From positions 111,212 to 175,211 of the forward strand of contig NZ_BKDJ01000006.1 of NCBI RefSeq assembly GCF_008580665.1: a DNA stretch of 64,000 nt. Direction: 5' to 3'. The stretch comes from Zafaria cholistanensis (GTDB taxonomy: Bacteria > Actinomycetota > Actinomycetes > Actinomycetales > Micrococcaceae). A program made the position numbers and the translations under genes. This document shows positions 21,592 through 30,367 of this stretch, piece after piece (position 1 is the stretch's first letter; each line of letters starts with the position of its first letter). Below the pieces are notes generated by a model. That model searched no databases and was not told where the DNA came from. It worked only from the letters and a program-made list of their open reading frames with translations.

Positions 21592-22794
21592 TCAGGCCGC
21601 GGCGCGCAGCCGCTTGCGGGCCTTGCGCACCGCCTTGAGCACCGAGGTGGGCAGGGCGGTGCGGATCCGGGCCCGGCGGGACTTGCGCCGGACCAGGGCC
21701 AGGACTTCGGGGTCGCTGGCCAGCCGCCCGGCCCGCGCCCGTTCGGCCAGCTGGAGCAGGAGGTCGCCCAGGGGCACGTGCTGGGTGTGGAAGTAGTTTT
21801 CCCGCAGCCATTGCGGGTCCGCGCAGGCGAAGCGCAGCTGCTCCACGTCATCCAGCGTGCCCAGCAGGCCGCTGTCGGCGAAGACCTTGTTCAGCAGCTT
21901 TTCGCTGACCCCGAAGTCCTCGAGGATCAGGGCCGGGAGCCCGCGGTCCAGGGCCTCCAGCACGGCGGTGGAGGAGACGGTGAGCAGGGCCGAACCGGGG
22001 CCAAGCACTGAATCCATGGAGCCGGTGGCGAAGCGGACGGATCCCTCACGCACGGTGCCGGCCTCCACCAGGCCGGCCCAGAGGGCGTCGTACGGGTGGC
22101 GTTCGCGGTGGGTTTGGGGTTCTCCGGCCAGGGCGCGCAGCTTCACCACCACCTCCACCCCGGGGTTGCGTTCGGCGGCCGCGGCCAGCCGGACCAGAAG
22201 CTGTTCGCGTTCGGTGCGCCGGAACGGCATCTTCGCCTGGGCCGCGAAAACGATGCGGGTCACCGGCGCTTCCACCGGAACGGGGCGCTTGGGCGAGGCG
22301 AGGAACGGCAGCCGGGAGAGCAGGATCGAGATGTTGGAGCCGATCTTCTCGGCAATGTCCGCAAACGCGCGGGTCTCGGCATGGCTGTGGGCGATGAAGG
22401 CGTCCCCCAGGGCCCGGAAGCGCAGTGCCTTGGAGGTGGCCGGGTAGGCGACCCCGGGCAGCGCGGAGACCAGGGCCGGACGCGGGCGCCGCTTCACGGA
22501 GGCCACCCGGTAGAAGACCTCCTGCACCACCGGTCCGGTGGCTGCCGCGAAGACGACGTCGGTGCCCGCCAGTTCGGCGGCCAGCCGGTGTGCGGGGACG
22601 ACGTCGGGAACGATTCCCTCCATGAAGGTGCCTGCGGTGGCGGCGCGCTGCTGCACCTCGGTGGGCAGCAGCGGGGAGCGCACCAGCACCACGCGGCGCT
22701 CCCATTCGGGGCCCAGCCGGTCCAGCGTGGTGCAGGCCAGCTTCAGGTACGAGTCGCTGTCGGCGACGGCGGTGATCCGGTAGCGGGGGGTCAT
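21592..22794 (-). CDS. Putative glycosyltransferase, DUF6716-like
   Basis: A 400-residue protein of GT-B appearance and the last gene of the glycan cluster. It resembles actinobacterial DUF6716 putative glycosyltransferases. Visible features are a Rossmann-like start (YRITAVADSDSYLKLA), a central FAAQAKMPF, VVVKLRAL, and TVSSTAVLEALDRGLPALIL, a nucleotide-sugar-site pattern with an S-S/T motif like that of bacterial sialyltransferases. The C-terminal tail is Arg/Lys-rich (RRKSRRARIR, RKARKRLR) and may bind the membrane. TAGGAGAGAACGC precedes the ATG. Its acceptor and donor are unknown; CMP-nonulosonate is the best guess from context. Confidence 0.75.
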   Translation of the reverse strand: MTPRYRITAVADSDSYLKLACTTLDRLGPEWERRVVLVRSPLLPTEVQQRAATAGTFMEGIVPDVVPAHRLAAELAGTDVVFAAATGPVVQEVFYRVASVKRRPRPALVSALPGVAYPATSKALRFRALGDAFIAHSHAETRAFADIAEKIGSNISILLSRLPFLASPKRPVPVEAPVTRIVFAAQAKMPFRRTEREQLLVRLAAAAERNPGVEVVVKLRALAGEPQTHRERHPYDALWAGLVEAGTVREGSVRFATGSMDSVLGPGSALLTVSSTAVLEALDRGLPALILEDFGVSEKLLNKVFADSGLLGTLDDVEQLRFACADPQWLRENYFHTQHVPLGDLLLQLAERARAGRLASDPEVLALVRRKSRRARIRTALPTSVLKAVRKARKRLRAAA

Positions 22795-22830
22795 GCGTTC
22801 TCTCCTAGTGAATCCGGTCAGCTGAATCTG

Positions 22831-22864
22831 GTCAGCCCAGTGAAGTAGTCAGCCCAGTGAAGTG
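22831..22864. repeat. 17-bp tandem duplication at a gene end
   Basis: GTCAGCCCAGTGAAGTA/G occurs twice in tandem (22831-22847 and 22848-22864), with a diverged partial copy before it (22817-22830). The stop codon of the GT52-like gene lies in the second copy, so the duplicated unit carries an extra downstream copy of that gene end. Confidence 0.8.
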
Positions 22865-23904
22865 GTCAGGTGCGCGCGCAGCGCGGGGGTCGCCGCCGGG
22901 GTCCACCAGGGATCGGGGACGGGGTGCCCCTTGATGGCCACGCCGTTGGGCGCCAGCAGCAGCCGCAGGGAGGGCAGCACGGTGGAGGGCAGGGCGCGCA
23001 CGGTCTGGCCCGGGCGCAACCCGCGCAACCTCATCTCCACCGGCACTGTGTGCTCCTGGACGCGGATCATGGGGTTCCCGGCCAGCCGGGCCAGGAAGTC
23101 CGGGCGTTCGCGCCGGTGCGGGAAGTAGGCCACCGGGCCGTCCTCGGCCAGCGACATCACCCAACCCAGGTAGGCCTCCACGTCGACCAGGCCATCGGAG
23201 GCCAGCGCGGAACCGACCACGATGGTTGGCTCGTGGAAGGTCTCCGGCACCGGCTGGCTGGCCAGCCACTCGAAGCGGTGGTGCTCCAGGTGTCCGCCCA
23301 GCGCCCGGAACTTCTCGTCGACGCAGATCGGCACGGGCAGCGCGGTGAAGGCCATCAGCCTGCCGTGCCTGGCAAGCAGGCGCAGGTGGTGCCAGGTGGC
23401 CAGGCCCAGGGCCCGCCGGCCGAGGCCGGCCCGCCCGCGCGGGCGGATGAGCGGAACGGGCCGGTCGGCGGTGAGCATGTCCAGCAGCTTCAGGGTGGCC
23501 AGGCCGTCGTCGACGATGACCACCTCCTGGGCCGCGACCGGGCCCAGCAGCGCCCGCTGGATGCGGCCGGAGTAGGCGTCGCCGGTCACCCAGCGGTCGA
23601 TGCCCGGCCGGCTGGCCGGAGGCACCTTGAGCCCGGCATCGGCGAAGCTGATCCCGGGCGGGGCGTGGGCCACCAGCGCCTGCAGCGTGGAATCCAGCCC
23701 CTCCGTTCCCCCGCGGGGGTGGATCACGGTGTCTGAACCCAGCAGCCCCGCACCGTGCGCCTCTACTGCGCTGAGCAGCTGCAGCGGGGATTCGACCCAC
23801 ACCTCGGCACGCCCGTGGCGGGGCCGGGCAACCTCCGGCACCAGCCGCAGCCTGCGGCTGTGCTCCCGCCGCCCCACGGCGGCCTTACTCTGTGCCGTTT
23901 GCAT
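22849..23904 (-). CDS. GT52-like (sialyltransferase-like) glycosyltransferase
   Basis: A 351-residue protein. After a basic N-terminal 32 residues, VWVESPLQLLSAVEA matches the start of GT52 lipooligosaccharide sialyltransferases. The bacterial sialyltransferase motifs can be traced: D-D-G in VIVDDGLATL, a His/Pro region (AYFPHRR), and S-T in ALPSTVLPSL. It would transfer a nonulosonic acid from its CMP form to a cell-surface glycan on the inner membrane face. Its start overlaps the end of the polysialyltransferase-like gene by 20 bases. The assignment rests on motifs only. Confidence 0.7.
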   Translation of the reverse strand: MQTAQSKAAVGRREHSRRLRLVPEVARPRHGRAEVWVESPLQLLSAVEAHGAGLLGSDTVIHPRGGTEGLDSTLQALVAHAPPGISFADAGLKVPPASRPGIDRWVTGDAYSGRIQRALLGPVAAQEVVIVDDGLATLKLLDMLTADRPVPLIRPRGRAGLGRRALGLATWHHLRLLARHGRLMAFTALPVPICVDEKFRALGGHLEHHRFEWLASQPVPETFHEPTIVVGSALASDGLVDVEAYLGWVMSLAEDGPVAYFPHRRERPDFLARLAGNPMIRVQEHTVPVEMRLRGLRPGQTVRALPSTVLPSLRLLLAPNGVAIKGHPVPDPWWTPAATPALRAHLTTSLG

Positions 23905-25372
23905 GGCGGTGTTCCGGCCGAAGCCGTGTGGCGAGCCGGCCCAGCCGCCTCCGTCCGGCCCGCCCCATCCTCAGGAGCGCCCGGGGGTGCAGCCGGTGGG
24001 ATGCGGGGGCGGGATTGGACGGGGCGGGATTGGACGGGGTGGGGTGGGACTGTGCCGAAGCGGACAGGGCGGTGTCGCCGGTGGGGGCGCCGTCCGGTTC
24101 ATCGGCCTCCCGGGACTGGTCGGAAACGGGCAGGTCGGGGAGGGGCAGGTCGAGGACGGACAGGCGGCGTCGCCTGAAATAGCGGGCCTGCTGGGGCAGG
24201 CCCGCACGCAGGAATTCCGTGGTGGCCGAACGCAGGCCCGGCAGTTGCCTGGACTGCATGCAGTACGCCACGGCCTCGACCAGGCGCTGAAGCTGTCCGC
24301 CGGTGCCGTCGGGGTCCTCGGCCGGGGTGGGCATCGAGCGGACCAGCAGCGCATCGATGAGGGTGACCGGGATCCGGTTGCTGTTCTCGTACGGGGTCAG
24401 GCGCTCCAGCAGAAGCTCGGTGCCGACGGCCTGGCATTCGATTCCCAAGAGGTACCGTGCCGTGGCCAGCGCGGTGGAGAAGCAGGAGATGACGACGTCG
24501 GGACGCATCTTCGCCATGGCCGTTTCCGCCAGCACGGGGCTGTCCAGCACCATAAAGCCCAGTCCCAGGCCGGCGGCATCCTCGGCCAGCCGGCGCGCCG
24601 TCGGGGGGCCCGAGCTGGGGTGCGGCTTGAAGACCACCGTGCGGACTCCGCGGTCCCGCGCCGCCCGCAGCATGTCCCGGTGCAGCCCGGCCTCCTCCTC
24701 AGCGGTGAGGATCCCGAGGTCCGCAAGGTACTGCCCGAGCACCAGGGCGGTGGGTCCCTGGGAGGCAGCGGCGGGAAGGTCCGGGGTGGCGTCGGCGACC
24801 TCACAGAACACTGCGGCGAGGCCGGCCAGCCCCACCGCGGTCCGGCGCGGGCCGTGCTCGCGCAGCAGCAGCGGTTCCAGCCCGGGAACCAGGTCGACGT
24901 ACACAATCCCGTCCAGCCGCTGGCACAGCGGCTGGGGCAGCCCGTTACGGGTGGGCCCGTAGGACATGAGGCCGTCGGAATGCACCAGGATGGGGGCGTC
25001 GTGGAAGATCCGGCACAGTGCAACCGCCGGGTTGACCTGTATCGATTCGACCACCAGCTGCACGGGGGCGGTGCCCAGTCCCCAGTGGCTGCGCAGCAGG
25101 CGTTCCCAGAGGGGCAGCTCGTCCCGGCGGGGGCTGAACTGGGCCGGGCGCCGCGGCCACAGCAGTTCGGCAAGGTCGAGGACGCGGTCGAACCGGGCGG
25201 CCAGGGCGCCAAACCCCGCCATGTCCTGGATGCGGGGGGAGAGCTCGGGCTGGTGGGCTCCGTTGGCGAGGACCAGGACGCGCTCGTCGGCGTCGGGAAG
25301 CGCCCCGGCGTCGACCATTGCGGCCAGCGAGACAACCTGGAACATGGTGGAGGCCGCGACAAGCTGGATCAT
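23885..25372 (-). CDS. Polysialyltransferase-like glycosyltransferase
   Basis: A 495-residue protein resembling bacterial alpha-2,8-polysialyltransferases. Motifs in order: S-D-G in VHSDGLMSYGP, H-P in VVFKPHPSSGPP, and S-T in VISCFSTALATARYL, the three conserved elements of bacterial sialyltransferases. The C-terminal 80 residues are low-complexity (TPSNPAPSNPAPAS repeat) and basic. GCAGGAGTCTCCC precedes ATG 25372, which overlaps the upstream GT2 gene by four bases (ATGA). It would polymerise or extend a nonulosonate chain; donor and linkage are inferred. Confidence 0.75.
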   Translation of the reverse strand: MIQLVAASTMFQVVSLAAMVDAGALPDADERVLVLANGAHQPELSPRIQDMAGFGALAARFDRVLDLAELLWPRRPAQFSPRRDELPLWERLLRSHWGLGTAPVQLVVESIQVNPAVALCRIFHDAPILVHSDGLMSYGPTRNGLPQPLCQRLDGIVYVDLVPGLEPLLLREHGPRRTAVGLAGLAAVFCEVADATPDLPAAASQGPTALVLGQYLADLGILTAEEEAGLHRDMLRAARDRGVRTVVFKPHPSSGPPTARRLAEDAAGLGLGFMVLDSPVLAETAMAKMRPDVVISCFSTALATARYLLGIECQAVGTELLLERLTPYENSNRIPVTLIDALLVRSMPTPAEDPDGTGGQLQRLVEAVAYCMQSRQLPGLRSATTEFLRAGLPQQARYFRRRRLSVLDLPLPDLPVSDQSREADEPDGAPTGDTALSASAQSHPTPSNPAPSNPAPASHRLHPRALLRMGRAGRRRLGRLATRLRPEHRHANGTE

Positions 25373-26403
25373 GGGGAGACTCCTGCGGGTGCGGCGGGCA
25401 CGGATTCGGCGGGCACGGAGCCCGTAAAACGCCCGGGGCCACCGGGCAGCAGCGGGAGCAGGGCGGCCCGGCGCTCCGCATCCAGGGTATCCAGGGCCCC
25501 CTGGCATGCTTCCTGGGGCATGGCGGCCAGGGCCTGGGTGATGCCCGCCCGCAGCGGTTCCCGCAAGTCCCCGGGCCAGTTGTCCCTGCCCAGGTGGTGG
25601 CAGGCCACGGCGCAGAACTGCCGGGCAACCTTGGGCCAGAACAGGGTGGGGTCCTCAACGGTTTGGACCAGGTCGAAAATCATCGCGAACGACGGGAGGA
25701 AGTCCAATTGCCTTTCGTCGCAGACCTGGGTCAGGGAGGTTGGCACTCCCCGCCGGTAGATGACGCCGGGGGCGTTGACGACAGCGAAACTGTCCGCCTG
25801 GAGATGCAGGCGCCAGATCCAGGGGCGGTCCTCGGCGGTCCTCAGGCCGTCGGGAAAGCGCAGCAGTCCGCGTTCGGCGACCCGCCGCTGGAACAGCCCG
25901 GCCCATGCATAGGGGTAGTCGACCATGGCCCTTGCGTCGGCCGGCAGGATCGACTCCCGGGGGTCCAGGGCGGTTCCTCGGCGGGCTTGGGGTGCGCGCA
26001 CCAGGGTGCGCCTGCCCTCCTCCACGGTGACGTGGTCGGTGCGGACAAAGTCCACATCCAGCCGCCGCAGCGAATCGAGGCACGCCGCCAGATGCCCGGG
26101 GGCCAGCCAGTCGTCGCCGTCGAGGAAGGCGATGTACGCACCCCCGGCGGCGTCGAGGCCCTGGTTCCGGGCCGTGGCCAGGCCCGCGGTGGATTCGTTG
26201 CGGAGCACCCGGAGGCCGGGGAGCCGGTCCGCGAAGGACGCGGCCAGCTCCCCGGTTCCGTCGGTGGATCCGTCGTCGACCACCAGCACCTCGAGCACGG
26301 CGGGATCGTCGAACTGCAGGGCAAGCGAAGCCAGGGCGTCGGAGACGTACGGTGCCTGGTCCTTGGCCGGGACGATCACGCTGACGAGGGGCCGGTGGGT
26401 CAT
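25369..26403 (-). CDS. Family 2 glycosyltransferase
   Basis: A 344-residue GT-A enzyme. The nucleotide-sugar fold begins VSVIVPAKDQAPYVSDALASL, with VVDDGSTDGT and the metal-binding FLDGDDWL. The acceptor region includes EDRPWIWRLHL. It has no membrane helices, so it acts at the cytoplasmic face. It lies 10 bases after the NeuB-like gene and overlaps the polysialyltransferase-like gene, so it belongs to the same operon. It probably adds a sugar to the nonulosonate-containing glycan. Confidence 0.9.
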   Translation of the reverse strand: MTHRPLVSVIVPAKDQAPYVSDALASLALQFDDPAVLEVLVVDDGSTDGTGELAASFADRLPGLRVLRNESTAGLATARNQGLDAAGGAYIAFLDGDDWLAPGHLAACLDSLRRLDVDFVRTDHVTVEEGRRTLVRAPQARRGTALDPRESILPADARAMVDYPYAWAGLFQRRVAERGLLRFPDGLRTAEDRPWIWRLHLQADSFAVVNAPGVIYRRGVPTSLTQVCDERQLDFLPSFAMIFDLVQTVEDPTLFWPKVARQFCAVACHHLGRDNWPGDLREPLRAGITQALAAMPQEACQGALDTLDAERRAALLPLLPGGPGRFTGSVPAESVPAAPAGVSP

Positions 26404-26413
26404 AGGGCGGTCC

Positions 26414-27310
26414 TTAGGCGTCGACGCGGCGCAGGCGGGACAGCGGGGCCAGCTCGCCCGGGAAGACGCGCTTGACGCCGTCGCCCAGGGCTTCCTCCAG
26501 GATGCGGATGTCGCGGATCAGCGCCTCGAAGCCCTTCGGCTCCAGCGAGGAGGCCTGGTCCGAGCCCCACATGGTGCGGTCCAGGGTGATGTGGCGCTCC
26601 ACCGTCACCGCGCCCAGGGCGACGGCGGCCAGGGAGATCTGCAGGCCGCGCTCGTGGCCGGAGTAGCCCACCGGCACCTGGTAGCGCTCGCGCAGGGTCT
26701 CGATGGTGCGCAGGTTCGCCTCCTCCGCGGGCAGCGGGTAGGTGGAGGTCGCGTGCATGAGGACCAGCCTATCCGTGCCGAGGGTTTCCACGGCGGTGTC
26801 GATCTGCTCAAGCGTGGACATGCCGGTGGAGAGGATGATCGGCTTGCCGGTCTCGGCGAGCGCCCGCAGCAGGTCCAGGTCGGTGACCGAGGCGGAGGCG
26901 ACCTTGTGGGTCAGCGCTCCCTGGGCCTCCATGAACTCCACGGAGGGCACATCCCACGGGGAAGCGAAGCAGTGCAGGCCCTGGGCGGCCGCGTAGGACA
27001 TCAGCTCCTTGTACTGCTCGGCGCCGAACTCGACGCGGTAGCGGTAGTCCAGGTAGGTCATCTCGCCCCACGGGGTGGAGCGGATCTTGTCCCGCATGTC
27101 CATCGGGGTGGAGATGTCCGGGGTGCGCTTCTGGAACTTGACGGCGTTGGCGCCGGCCGCCGCGGAGACGTCGATCAGCTGCTTGGCGATGTCCATGTCG
27201 CCGTTGTGGTTGATGCCGATCTCGCCGATGACGTAGACGGACTGGCCCGGGCCGACCTTGAAGTCGCCGATGCTGACGGGTGCGATGTCGGTGATGGCTG
27301 CGGTGGTCAT
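26414..27310 (-). CDS. NeuB-family nonulosonic acid synthase, lacking SAF domain
   Basis: A 298-residue TIM-barrel enzyme of the N-acetylneuraminate synthase family, which condenses phosphoenolpyruvate with a six-carbon sugar. Signature pieces are GEIGINHNGD, AVKFQKR, STGMSTLEQ, LMHATSTYPLP and GYSGHERG. Classical NeuB proteins carry a C-terminal SAF (antifreeze-like) domain of about 60 residues; here the protein stops right after the barrel. AAAGGGGCGG precedes ATG 27310. With no epimerase gene nearby and a HAD phosphatase next door, mannose 6-phosphate as substrate (Kdn 9-phosphate synthase) is more likely than ManNAc. Confidence 0.85.
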   Translation of the reverse strand: MTTAAITDIAPVSIGDFKVGPGQSVYVIGEIGINHNGDMDIAKQLIDVSAAAGANAVKFQKRTPDISTPMDMRDKIRSTPWGEMTYLDYRYRVEFGAEQYKELMSYAAAQGLHCFASPWDVPSVEFMEAQGALTHKVASASVTDLDLLRALAETGKPIILSTGMSTLEQIDTAVETLGTDRLVLMHATSTYPLPAEEANLRTIETLRERYQVPVGYSGHERGLQISLAAVALGAVTVERHITLDRTMWGSDQASSLEPKGFEALIRDIRILEEALGDGVKRVFPGELAPLSRLRRVDA

Positions 27311-27326
27311 GCTGACCGCCCCTTTC

Positions 27327-28547
27327 TTAGTGGTGTTCGCCGGCGGTCGCGAGGACGCGCGGCTGTGGTTGTGCGGCGAGGATGCGCTCGCAGGCTTCGC
27401 GGACGGCCCCGTGGCCGCCCTTGGCGGACAGCACCAGTCGTGCCGCCGCGCGCGCTTCGGGCCGTGCGTCGGCGACCGCGAGCGGCCATCCGACGGTGGC
27501 CATGGCGCCGACGTCGTTGACGTCGTTGCCAAGGAAGGCGACCCGCTCCGGGTCCAGGCCCCGGGCGGAAATCCATTCGGCCAGCCGGGAGGCCTTGTCG
27601 TCGATGCCCTGCAGGACCTCGACGCCAAGCTTGCGTCCCCGCGCGGCAACGACCGGGTTCTTCTCCGTGGACAGGATCAGCAGCGGCACGCCGGCCCGGC
27701 GCAGCCGGGCCACGCCCATGCCGTCGCCGCGGTGCACGCGCACGTGCTCGGTCCCGTCCTCGGAGAGCAGGACGGCGTCGTCGGTGTGGACGCCGTCGAA
27801 GTCGGTGACCAGGGCGTCGACGTCGATGCCGGCCCCGCCCGGGGCCGCTTCCTCCCGGCGCGCCGCCAGGGCGGTCACCAGGTCCAGGTCCTCGGGCGAG
27901 TCGATCTCGACCGAGTGCTCCGGCGGGACCACGTGCAGTCGCAGCTGGCCGAAGAAACGGTGCCCGTGCCGGCGGAACCCCTCGGTGCGCAGCGCGTAGA
28001 ACGCGCCGGTTTCGCGGTACTGGGGTTCGCGGTCCTGGCGGCGGGGACGGTGCGCGGCGTCATGCCCGACGGCGGCAACCCGGCCGTCCGGGCCCACGGT
28101 CCACAGGAACGCGTGGCTTTCGGCGACGCTGAAGCACACGTCGGCACCCCCGGCGAGGACCTCCGTGACCGCGGCGTCCAGGTCCGCGGGGTCGATGAAG
28201 GGGGAGGTGCACTGCAGCAGGACCACCACCTCGGGATCCTCGCCCGCCTGGGTGCGGTGCGCGTCCAGGGCGTGCAGGACCGCGGATTCGCTGGTGGCCA
28301 GGTCCCCGGAGAGTTCGGCGGGGCGGTCCACGGCCTGGGCGCCGCAGCGCAGCGCCTCCGCGCGGATTCCCGGGTGGTCGGTGCTGACCACCACATCGGT
28401 TACGGAGGGGGCGCAGAGCGCGGCGTCGACGGCCCGGGCCACCAGCGATCGCCCGGCCACGGGCCGGAGGTTTTTGAGGGGGATTCCCTTGGATCCGCCG
28501 CGGGCTGGAATCACCACGAGGACCCGGGATTTCTTGCTCTTGCTCAC
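27327..28547 (-). CDS. CMP-nonulosonate synthetase fused to HAD phosphatase
   Basis: A 406-residue two-domain protein. Residues about 8-230 are a NeuA-type cytidylyltransferase (VVIPARGGSKGIPLKNL, LLQCTSPF, ETGAFYA, EIDSPEDL). Residues about 245-400 are a KdsC-like HAD phosphatase (VTDFDGVHTDD with its DxD, ILSTEKN, FLGNDVNDVGAM). The pair can remove the 9-phosphate of a nonulosonate and activate it as its CMP form. GTG 28547 is chosen; a TTG at 28553 is possible. No clear ribosome site exists, so the message may be leaderless. It is the first gene of the six-gene cluster. Confidence 0.87.
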   Translation of the reverse strand: MSKSKKSRVLVVIPARGGSKGIPLKNLRPVAGRSLVARAVDAALCAPSVTDVVVSTDHPGIRAEALRCGAQAVDRPAELSGDLATSESAVLHALDAHRTQAGEDPEVVVLLQCTSPFIDPADLDAAVTEVLAGGADVCFSVAESHAFLWTVGPDGRVAAVGHDAAHRPRRQDREPQYRETGAFYALRTEGFRRHGHRFFGQLRLHVVPPEHSVEIDSPEDLDLVTALAARREEAAPGGAGIDVDALVTDFDGVHTDDAVLLSEDGTEHVRVHRGDGMGVARLRRAGVPLLILSTEKNPVVAARGRKLGVEVLQGIDDKASRLAEWISARGLDPERVAFLGNDVNDVGAMATVGWPLAVADARPEARAAARLVLSAKGGHGAVREACERILAAQPQPRVLATAGEHH

Positions 28548-28744
28548 CCCCAAGACGGTACGGAGCAGCTGTTAAGGGGCCGGGAAGGGCGGGTGAACGG
28601 CCGGTGATGGGCCGAAGACGCTTTGGCGTCCCGCACGTCCCGCCGGCGCCGCACGCTCCGAAGGAGCCGGCGCCCGCGGACGGGCGGGTTCCGCCGGGCC
28701 CGGACCCTTCGGTTGGGCGCCCCCCAGCGGATAGGCTCGAACCT

Positions 28745-30367
28745 ATGGAGCCTCATCCCCCCGGGCCGCCGGCGCGCCCGTCCGGCCGGCCGGTGCGCAT
28801 CACCGCGCCCACGCGCAACGACCCGCTGCTGCGCCGGCTGGCGGAAGTGGCCGGGGGGCCGCTGGGCCGCCACGCGGATCCGGGGCGGGTAAACCCCGGA
28901 TTCTGGAGCCTTGAACGGGTGCTGATCGCGATGACCGTCGTCGCGGCGATCCTGGCCGTGCTGGCCAAGAACGCCTGCCGGGTGAACGGCTGGGGCGGCA
29001 CCGGCTCCTTCGCGTGGGGCTGCTATTCGGACTGGCCCTCGCTGTTCACCGGCCGCGGCTTCGCCGGGAACCCGTGGGCGGCTTTCGCTCCCGGCGCCGA
29101 GTTCGAATACCCCGTCCTGATGGGGGCGGTGGCGGGCCTGATCGCCTGGCTCGTCCCGCCGGATGCCGGGAACCGGGCCCTGGTGTTCTTCGATCTCAAC
29201 GTGCTCGCCGTCGTCGGGCTCTGGCTGGCGGCAGTGATCGCGACGGCGCGCAGCGCCGGACGCAGGCCCTGGGATGCGGCCATGGTGGCACTGGCTCCCG
29301 GCATCATCCTGGCCTCCACCATCAACTGGGACATGTGGGCGGTGGCGCTGCTGGCGCTGGCCGTGCTGGCGTGGTCGCGGGACAAGCCGCTGCTTGCCGG
29401 GGTCCTGGTGGGGCTGGGCACCGCCATGAAGCTTTATCCCGTGCTGTTCTTCGGTGCCGTCGCCGTGCTGGCCCTGCGCACCGGGCGCTGGCGCCCGCTG
29501 GCGCTCAGCGGCGCCGGGGCCGCGGGGGCCTGGGGGGCCGTGAACCTGCCGTTCGCGCTGGCGAACTTTGAGGCGTGGGCGTACTTCTTCGAATTCACGC
29601 GGGACCGTGAGGCCGGCTGGTCCTCGCTGTGGAACGCCTGGAACACCCTGGCCGCCGCTCTCCCCGGCGCCCCCCGTTTCGACGCCGCAAGCATCAACGC
29701 AGCCGGGTTCTGGCTTTTCGCCGCAAGCTGCGCGGGCATCGCGGCGCTGGGGCTGCTGGCCCCGCGGCGCCCGCGCTTCGCGCAGCTGCTGTTCCTGGTG
29801 GTCGCCAGCTTCATCCTGTTCAACAAGGTGTACTCGCCGCAGTTCGTGGTGTGGCTGGTGCCGCTGGCCGTGCTTGCCTGGCCGCGCTGGCGGGACTTCC
29901 TGGCCTGGCAGCTGGTGGAGGCCCTGCACTTCTGGGCCATCTGGATGCACCTCTACGCGATCACCGCGGACATCAAGCCCCAGCACACCTTTCCCGAATC
30001 CTTCTACGTCCTGGCCGTCTTTGGACACATGGCCGCGACCGGGTACCTGATGTACCGGGTGGTGCGCAGCATGATGGATCCGGAGCGGGATCCGGTGCGC
30101 CGGGTCGGCCAGGAGGACCCCCAGGCCGGTCCTTTCGCGGGGGCCCCCGACCGGTTCACGCTGCGTTGGCCGCGGGCCTCCGAAGCGGTCCGCGCTGCCC
30201 GCGCCGGCACCGCGCGCGGACGGCGTTTTGCCCAGCCGCCGTTCGATCCCTCCACTGAACCACCCACTGGCCCGCCTGCCGGCCCGAACTCCGCCCCGCC
30301 CGGCCCACCGGCCGCCGGGGCCGGATCCGGCGTTCCGGGCGCGGGGAACGGAGCCCGCAATGGCTGA
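28745..30367 (+). CDS. GT87-type polytopic glycosyltransferase
   Basis: A 540-residue membrane protein with about nine to ten helices after an 80-residue cytoplasmic segment, and a proline-rich C-terminal tail. The sequence around ASTINWDMWAVALLALAVLAW and GTAMKLYPVLFF is characteristic of GT87 polyprenyl-phosphate-mannose mannosyltransferases (DUF2029), and NKVYSPQFVVWLVPL is also typical. These enzymes extend mannans such as lipomannan on the outer membrane face. ATG 28745 lacks a strong ribosome site. It is divergent from the nonulosonate cluster and overlaps the next gene by eight bases. Confidence 0.82.
   Translation: MEPHPPGPPARPSGRPVRITAPTRNDPLLRRLAEVAGGPLGRHADPGRVNPGFWSLERVLIAMTVVAAILAVLAKNACRVNGWGGTGSFAWGCYSDWPSLFTGRGFAGNPWAAFAPGAEFEYPVLMGAVAGLIAWLVPPDAGNRALVFFDLNVLAVVGLWLAAVIATARSAGRRPWDAAMVALAPGIILASTINWDMWAVALLALAVLAWSRDKPLLAGVLVGLGTAMKLYPVLFFGAVAVLALRTGRWRPLALSGAGAAGAWGAVNLPFALANFEAWAYFFEFTRDREAGWSSLWNAWNTLAAALPGAPRFDAASINAAGFWLFAASCAGIAALGLLAPRRPRFAQLLFLVVASFILFNKVYSPQFVVWLVPLAVLAWPRWRDFLAWQLVEALHFWAIWMHLYAITADIKPQHTFPESFYVLAVFGHMAATGYLMYRVVRSMMDPERDPVRRVGQEDPQAGPFAGAPDRFTLRWPRASEAVRAARAGTARGRRFAQPPFDPSTEPPTGPPAGPNSAPPGPPAAGAGSGVPGAGNGARNG

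Follow-up and report, generated by a model that had tools for sequence, protein, structure and literature searches.

Known teichulosonic acid systems

A gene system for Kdn-containing wall polymers is already recognised in Streptomyces. The S. coelicolor genes SCO4873-SCO4882 are described as a teichulosonic acid cluster in passages of PMC13011467, which, like parts of PMC8003754, cites Ostash et al. (2014) on the Streptomyces teichulosonic acid region, and the wall polymer of this species is given as Gal plus Kdn in excerpts of PMC11481543 and PMC7831098. Within this cluster, SCO4880 was named 'putative transferase' and SCO4881 'polysaccharide biosynthesis related' (PMC2267785). The portion of PMC8269224 that treats Planobispora rosea equates its genes RS15220, 15225, 15230, 15235 and RS38880 with SCO4882, 4879, 4877, 4878 and 4880, respectively; in the table there, a GT2 and a sialic acid synthase are the only products given by name, and the other three equations follow gene order. 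Passages of PMC6801904 assign a Kdn teichulosonic acid to Promicromonospora citrea. Teichulosonic acid is also noted for Kribbella (excerpt of PMC6113628), and the utr genes of S. griseus are presented as a separate teichuronic acid system (excerpt of PMC13274773), neither of which changes the reading given below. Outside the actinobacteria, the route from Man-6-P through Kdn-9-P and Kdn to CMP-Kdn is outlined for Bacteroides thetaiotaomicron and Prymnesium parvum in passages of PMC6200933. Kdn in Micrococcaceae walls was not found in the titles or abstract openings of the literature matches listed.

A conserved six-gene locus

The stretch of DNA analysed here (64,000 nucleotides, hereafter the window) contains six conserved, tightly packed genes at 21592-28547, all on the minus strand:

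27327..28547, minus strand: NeuA-HAD bifunctional protein (Pfam CTP_transf_3 and Hydrolase_3)
26414..27310, minus strand: NeuB-family synthase, 298 aa (Pfam NeuB)
25369..26403, minus strand: GT2 glycosyltransferase (Pfam Glycos_transf_2)
23885..25372, minus strand: polysialyltransferase-like transferase (PF07388, Pfam A-2_8-polyST)
22849..23904, minus strand: 351-aa protein, no Pfam family (described by fold and motifs)
21592..22794, minus strand: DUF6716 putative glycosyltransferase (PF20471)

Coordinates and Pfam families agree with the minus-strand set with short gaps and overlaps that the first-pass annotation had described: the junctions consist of gaps of 16, 10 and 54 bases and of overlaps of 4 (ATGA) and 20 bases. 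The six genes probably form one transcription unit, within which no exporter or ligase gene was found.

We surveyed 80 titled actinobacterial loci fetched with the synthase, the best of at least 573 confirmed; no Streptomyces is among these 80. All six families were present in 26 of these best 80 loci, so that the co-occurrence of three different transferases, which had been thought unusual, is a recurrent arrangement, and 13 of the 80 displayed the gene order of the window. Since the same families, often in the same order, recur in other genera, a chance occurrence is very unlikely. Among the Promicromonospora loci fetched, which belong to species other than P. citrea, NeuA-HAD and NeuB were present in three of three. 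In 17 of the 80 loci NeuA, HAD and NeuB share a single open frame, coding in 13 of the 17 for a protein of 678-696 residues, which ties the cytidylyltransferase, phosphatase and synthase activities together. DUF6716 was held by 29 of 120 family genomes, and all 29 also hold a close NeuB synthase. Because each ORF was called from its earliest possible start codon, several ORFs of the compared loci extend too far at the N-terminus, and their coordinates are outer limits. Alignments A2, A3, A4 and A6 took in 41 of 42, 60 of 68, 31 of 44 and 24 of 67 relatives, respectively.

Judged by gene content, order and conservation, predicted folds, motifs and the lack of a match to three ManNAc-forming families, the six-gene unit very probably produces CMP-Kdn and incorporates this sugar into a wall polymer of the teichulosonic acid type, with enzyme substrates, polymer, export and anchoring as predictions.

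The GT2 and the polysialyltransferase-like protein

The GT2 (Glycos_transf_2, E 3.9e-30) would add a neutral hexose. Its neighbor matches A-2_8-polyST (E 1.8e-24) and carries the motifs SDG, KPHP and FST, with near-invariant residues D134 G135, H252 P253 and S300 T301 (numbering begins one residue before the start Met). Searched against PDB sequences, the profile of this family gave no significant match, the weak rows including SiaD at E 0.67. This protein would be a CMP-Kdn transferase.

As PF07388 is named after alpha-2,8-polysialyltransferases, the product could be conceived as a Kdn homopolymer, a polysialic-acid-like capsule, instead of a hexose-Kdn copolymer. This is very unlikely, given that the GT2 stands beside the polysialyltransferase-like gene in 45 of the 45 loci having the latter (45 of the 80 surveyed, neither gene occurring alone at bit thresholds of 200 and 60), and that the actinobacterial polymers treated in parts of PMC11481543, PMC7831098 and PMC6801904 are copolymers with Gal or Glc.

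The 351-aa protein

The 351-aa protein has no Pfam or NCBIfam match and shows the motifs DDG (132-134), PHRR (262-265) and PST (306-308). Its structure model (pLDDT 91.6, pTM 0.86) is closest to the bacterial polysialyltransferase 5wc6/5wcn (for 5wc6, Z 16.7, rmsd 4.9, 296 residues aligned), which we take to belong to CAZy GT38, as we also assume the usual motif names; the Neisseria LOS sialyltransferase 2yk5, presumably a GT52 enzyme, ranks third with Foldseek. A global hhalign comparison of the 351-aa family with the polysialyltransferase-like family (84%, E 8.5e-7) shows that the two proteins are remotely related. In a Pfam scan of 42 family members, three gave weak PF07388 matches (best E 0.0085), and each of six unrelated families was matched by a single member. 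GT52 was listed neither for the 351-aa protein nor among these 42 members, so the earlier label 'GT52-like' gives way to a fold resemblance to 5wc6/5wcn. The family profile gave no significant match against PDB sequences, and comparisons with DUF6716 or the 2-epimerases gave no signal of kinship. The protein may act as a second CMP-Kdn transferase.

The DUF6716 protein

Regarding the last gene of the unit, PF20471 covers its product with an E of 2.8e-121, and the structure model reached a pLDDT of 92.4 and a pTM of 0.87. The nearest folds among those listed are UDP-GlcNAc-type 2-epimerases (best Z 21.1, rmsd 3.7, 295 residues aligned). The DUF6716 profile matched no PDB sequence significantly and showed no relation to the 351-aa family profiles; together with the 2-epimerase folds, these comparisons leave the proposed 'sialyltransferase-type' nature of the protein without backing. 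The word DUF6716 is absent among the literature matches listed. We retain a putative glycosyltransferase, with a role in the Kdn pathway suggested by co-occurrence.

This fold is the basis of another reading of the locus, in which Neu5Ac is made instead: DUF6716 would be a divergent UDP-GlcNAc 2-epimerase giving ManNAc, and a kinase encoded elsewhere would phosphorylate it. Beyond a Z of about 21, a local profile match to WecB-type epimerases (E 1.3e-4, probability 54%) speaks for it. However, this match spans just 90 C-terminal columns and the global alignment fails, for which we rejected a 2-epimerase as the main reading of DUF6716; Pfam lists no Epimerase_2 in the protein up to E 1. Moreover, a ManNAc kinase would also be required, since a phosphatase domain points to a 9-phosphate intermediate, and the S. 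coelicolor region that includes DUF6716, as judged by gene order, is linked to a Kdn polymer in the passages cited above. Synthesis of Neu5Ac is thus very unlikely.

The synthase and the NeuA-HAD protein

The synthase, starting at 27310, contains a NeuB domain (PF03102, E 1.5e-78), and Pfam lists no SAF domain, as had been noticed from the sequence. It matches PDB entries 6ncs (E 1e-47), 8h2c and 4ipi, and is the sole match to its own sequence in its genome at E <= 0.001. Across the proteins of the unit, the NCBIfam models NeuB_NnaB, PseI and PseF score under their cut-offs. In the 99.96% complete genome, the UDP-GlcNAc 2-epimerase, NanE and GlcNAc 2-epimerase families (PF02350, PF04131, PF07221) had no match, while the same search found a mannose-6-phosphate isomerase (PF20511).

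The NeuA-HAD frame starts with GTG at 28547, with an in-frame TTG at 28553. Its N-terminal domain (CTP_transf_3, E 3e-21) is, by sequence, a CMP-nonulosonate cytidylyltransferase; the C-terminal part (Hydrolase_3) forms a KdsC-like phosphatase domain at about 27369-27827. PDB sequence matches include 9t4z, named PpNeuA (E 7.5e-34), and the HAD protein 3mmz (E 2.3e-50). In a 68-row alignment of relatives scoring above 400 bits, D251, D253, S295, E297, K308, K320, N343, D344 and D347 are kept in all rows. Besides the catalytic motifs, the HAD domain has the Glu56/Lys67 pair of 3e81, with which E297 and K308 align; we take 3e81 to be a Kdn-9-phosphate phosphatase and likewise assume the role of this pair. 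The HAD domain would accordingly be a candidate for action on Kdn-9-phosphate. Another 2-keto-3-deoxy acid such as Kdo is a highly improbable product, for although the KdsC model of NCBIfam scores higher on this domain (100.4, cut-off 208) than the Kdn-9-P phosphatase model NF058599 (88.2 bits, cut-off 180), both staying under their cut-offs, the synthase is of the NeuB family and the KdsC-type chains 3n07, 3mn1 and 4um5 have Arg where the HAD domain keeps the conserved Glu.

Kdn is favored over sialic acid because none of the three ManNAc-forming families searched for matched, mannose-6-phosphate isomerase is present and the Glu/Lys pair of 3e81 is found in 68 of 68 rows. With the S. coelicolor synteny, these results uphold the Kdn-type nonulosonic acid glycan cluster first proposed, and the synthase is a predicted Kdn-9-phosphate synthase using mannose 6-phosphate and PEP.

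Proposed pathway and its significance

In the Kdn pathway that we propose, the synthase would condense mannose 6-phosphate with PEP to Kdn-9-phosphate, the HAD domain would strip the phosphate and the NeuA domain would convert Kdn to CMP-Kdn. The GT2 and the polysialyltransferase-like enzyme would then add hexose and Kdn units alternately, and the 351-aa enzyme and DUF6716 may form further linkages, such as those of a first unit, a side residue or a cap.

More tentatively, DUF6716 and the 351-aa family could be two new CMP-Kdn transferase families, so that with the polysialyltransferase-like one at least three actinobacterial families would place Kdn in wall polymers, while in 17 of the 80 loci one protein would cover the steps from mannose 6-phosphate to CMP-Kdn. 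Both families, which have no assigned function, are tied here to one sugar and thereby become directly testable, and the single-chain CMP-Kdn synthases are possible tools. NeuA-HAD plus a short NeuB, often with DUF6716, forms a genome signature from which Kdn wall polymers can be predicted, for instance in Glutamicibacter, Microbacterium, Agromyces, Nonomuraea and Brevibacterium.

Comparison with known systems

Compared with 5wc6/5wcn (PDB name SiaD), the 351-aa enzyme shares the fold and the DG, HP-like and S/T motifs, and the polysialyltransferase-like enzyme the motifs, by motif comparison alone; identity to the 351-aa enzyme is about 11%, and the donor of the window enzymes would be CMP-Kdn. 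DUF6716 resembles the UDP-GlcNAc 2-epimerases (WecB/MnaA) in overall fold and differs from them by having neither a full-length profile alignment nor an Epimerase_2 match. The chemistry predicted for the window is that of the B. thetaiotaomicron and P. parvum Kdn pathway, except that here cytidylyltransferase and phosphatase form one protein, which in 17 of 80 relatives also includes the synthase.

The six-gene locus appears to correspond to the SCO4873-SCO4882 region, more precisely to SCO4877-SCO4882, in which the same six families are clustered. By gene order, SCO4877 corresponds to the polysialyltransferase-like protein, SCO4878 to GT2, SCO4879 to DUF6716, SCO4880 to NeuA-HAD, SCO4881 to NeuB and SCO4882 to the 351-aa protein. 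Locus L078 has the P. rosea/SCO order, and five presumed Streptomyces genomes (L058-L062) have the order polysialyltransferase-like, GT2 / DUF6716, NeuA-HAD, NeuB, 351-aa, which fits SCO4877-SCO4882; within this presumed genus, five of seven sampled genomes show the gene order and two lack the synthase. In L058-L062 the GT2-polysialyltransferase pair lies in divergent orientation to the remaining genes, whereas the window carries all six on one strand and in another order.

Gene content and conservation of the cluster

The six-gene set proposed by the first-pass annotation was found to be present, with all of its genes on the minus strand. The locus and its Pfam content are as follows:

21592-28547, minus strand: NeuA-HAD (cytidylyltransferase and HAD); NeuB synthase (NeuB); GT2 glycosyltransferase (GT2); polysialyltransferase-like protein, polyST (A-2_8-polyST); 351-aa protein (no family); DUF6716 protein (DUF6716)
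28604-30367, divergent: GT87-family gene adjoining the cluster

The genes are separated by gaps of 16, 10 and 54 bases or overlap by 4 and 20 bases. NCBIfam searches matched NeuB_NnaB, PseI, PseF, KdsC and Kdn-9-P phosphatase, none of the five models attaining its own cut-off. No second synthase match was found in the genome (3.29 Mb, 99.96% complete, 49 contigs) at E <= 0.001. Synthases from Glutamicibacter, Arthrobacter and Galactobacter species (L071-L076) share 85-88% identity with that of the window, and the adjoining inositol-3-phosphate synthase shows 82-90% identity in seven of the nine loci compared, so that the source probably belongs to the Micrococcaceae. The GT87-family gene also lies beside the cluster in seven of nine related loci compared (L071, L072, L073, L075, L076, L079, L106).

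When titled genomes were searched with the synthase alignment, at least 591 stretches matched and at least 573 of these were confirmed; the best 80 were kept (14 clipped at contig ends, 66 uncut). Families were called using profiles from the window and an earlier set of fetched loci, with bit thresholds of 80 (NeuA-HAD), 150 (NeuB), 60 (DUF6716), 80 (351-aa), 60 (polyST) and 200 (GT2). Among these best 80 of at least 573 loci, 26 carried all six families; the presence of three transferases in one locus, initially considered unusual, is thus common by these family counts. NeuA-HAD and NeuB occurred with DUF6716 (16/80), DUF6716 and 351-aa (16/80), DUF6716, polyST and GT2 (11/80), polyST and GT2 (7/80) or by themselves (2/80), while NeuB was found with polyST and GT2, or alone, in one locus each. 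GT2 and polyST were always paired (together in 45/80, singly in none). The gene order of the window recurred in 13 loci (L071-L077, L079, L106, L136, L137, L139, L143). In two large genomes, the stretches read held a GT2-polyST pair (L070) or a DUF6716 gene (L069) and no synthase.

Co-occurrence of the transferase candidates with the synthase

The family to which the window belongs was sampled in 120 genomes: 30 encoded a synthase of at least 65% identity, 24 a remote one only (35-41%) and 66 none. All 29 genomes with DUF6716 fell within the 30 with a close synthase (Fisher p 5e-27, kinship ignored), DUF6716 being unmatched at E <= 1e-20 in the other 90. Remote NeuB sequences (39-40%) lay in frames of 808-1266 codons in family genomes such as G248, G311 and G258, where NeuB is perhaps fused with other domains.

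Across 246 genomes of the phylum, DUF6716 was matched in nine, all with a synthase. PolyST exceeded its cut-off in seven, six with a close synthase and one (G113) with a remote one. The 351-aa protein was matched in eight, seven with a close synthase; the eighth match, in a genome without synthase (G209), was weak (E 7e-4).

Among the best 80 of at least 573 loci, DUF6716 was the sole one of DUF6716, 351-aa and polyST in 16 (13 of the 66 uncut) and polyST in eight (6 of 66). These cases suggest, without proving it, that each could act as the Kdn transferase, although transferases from other families, or ones encoded beyond the stretch read, may also be present.

Folds and family relationships

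For the 351-aa protein, the predicted structure (pLDDT 91.6) was closest to the bacterial polysialyltransferase structures 5wc6/5wcn (Z 16.7, rmsd 4.9, 296 aligned; Z 16.2), followed by a UDP-sugar C-glucosyltransferase (Z 14.3) and a Photobacterium sialyltransferase (Z 14.0). The top three Foldseek rows were bacterial sialyltransferases of two kinds. Profile comparison with the polyST family gave E 0.0026 and 11.6% probability in local mode, and 84% and E 8.5e-7 in global mode, where the DG, PH and ST positions of the two families coincide; at the profile level, this links the two families as putative relatives. In Sanguibacter hominis (L077:11483-14161), polyST-like and 351-aa families share one 893-residue open frame, for which Pfam listed no family. 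A diverged second polyST-like copy adjoins the first in Galactobacter caseinivorans (L075:13605-14996).

The DUF6716 model (pLDDT 92.4) had 2-epimerases as its nearest folds (Z 21.1, rmsd 3.7, 295 aligned), and profile comparison gave no link with the 351-aa family. The E. coli control genome was matched by the DUF6716 model above its cut-off.

Kdn or sialic acid

Family profile searches of the window's own genome gave no match for Epimerase_2, NanE or GlcNAc_2-epim, and one match for mannose-6-phosphate isomerase. The 14 control genomes were matched in 11, 8, 2 and 7 cases, respectively. In NeuB, contact with the N-acetyl group is made through the SAF domain, so loss of this domain would fit Kdn.

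In the alignment of the HAD domain with PDB 3e81, which we take to be a Bacteroides Kdn-9-P phosphatase, E297 and K308 of the window protein fall on E56 and K67, residues that presumably determine its specificity. Both were conserved in 68 of 68 alignment rows, and the three KdsC-type chains shown carry Arg in place of the conserved Glu. Against a Kdn-9-P phosphatase assignment, however, the corresponding NCBIfam model scored below its threshold and below KdsC.

NeuA-HAD and NeuB share one open frame in 17 of the best 80 of at least 573 loci (L078, L079, L081, L082, L083, L085, L086, L087, L090, L091, L092, L095, L097, L099, L102, L103, L105), with 678-696 residues in 13 of the 17. In all four such proteins tested, Pfam recognized a cytidylyltransferase, a HAD and a NeuB part. 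The single frame places all three activities in the same pathway, and the protein is possibly a single-chain CMP-Kdn synthase; no report of such a protein was found among the 10 papers listed out of 37 matching ones. In Curtobacterium sp. MCBD17_032 (L118:8541-10873), NeuA-HAD and NeuB are each split over two open frames.

Comparison with the Streptomyces teichulosonic acid genes

In five genomes of one genus (L058-L062, 7-10 Mb), probably Streptomyces, polyST and GT2 are divergent from DUF6716, NeuA-HAD, NeuB and 351-aa; two further sampled genomes of this genus had no synthase match. The table excerpt of PMC8269224 pairs five Planobispora rosea genes with SCO4877, SCO4878, SCO4879, SCO4880 and SCO4882, labelling SCO4878 as GT2 and SCO4880 as 'sialic acid synthase'. 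In the P. rosea locus (L078), 351-aa, DUF6716, polyST and GT2 run in the order of the locus tags in that excerpt. SCO4873-SCO4882 and S. lividans SLI_5146-5156 are described as teichulosonic acid genes in passages of PMC13011467 and PMC8003754, crediting Ostash et al. 2014, and the S. coelicolor polymer as galactose and Kdn in passages of PMC11481543 and PMC7831098. A Kdn teichulosonic acid is also reported for Promicromonospora citrea in a passage of PMC6801904; NeuA-HAD and NeuB were found in all three fetched Promicromonospora loci, from other species. The locus of the window is probably a cluster of the Kdn teichulosonic acid type, a kind already known in Streptomyces.
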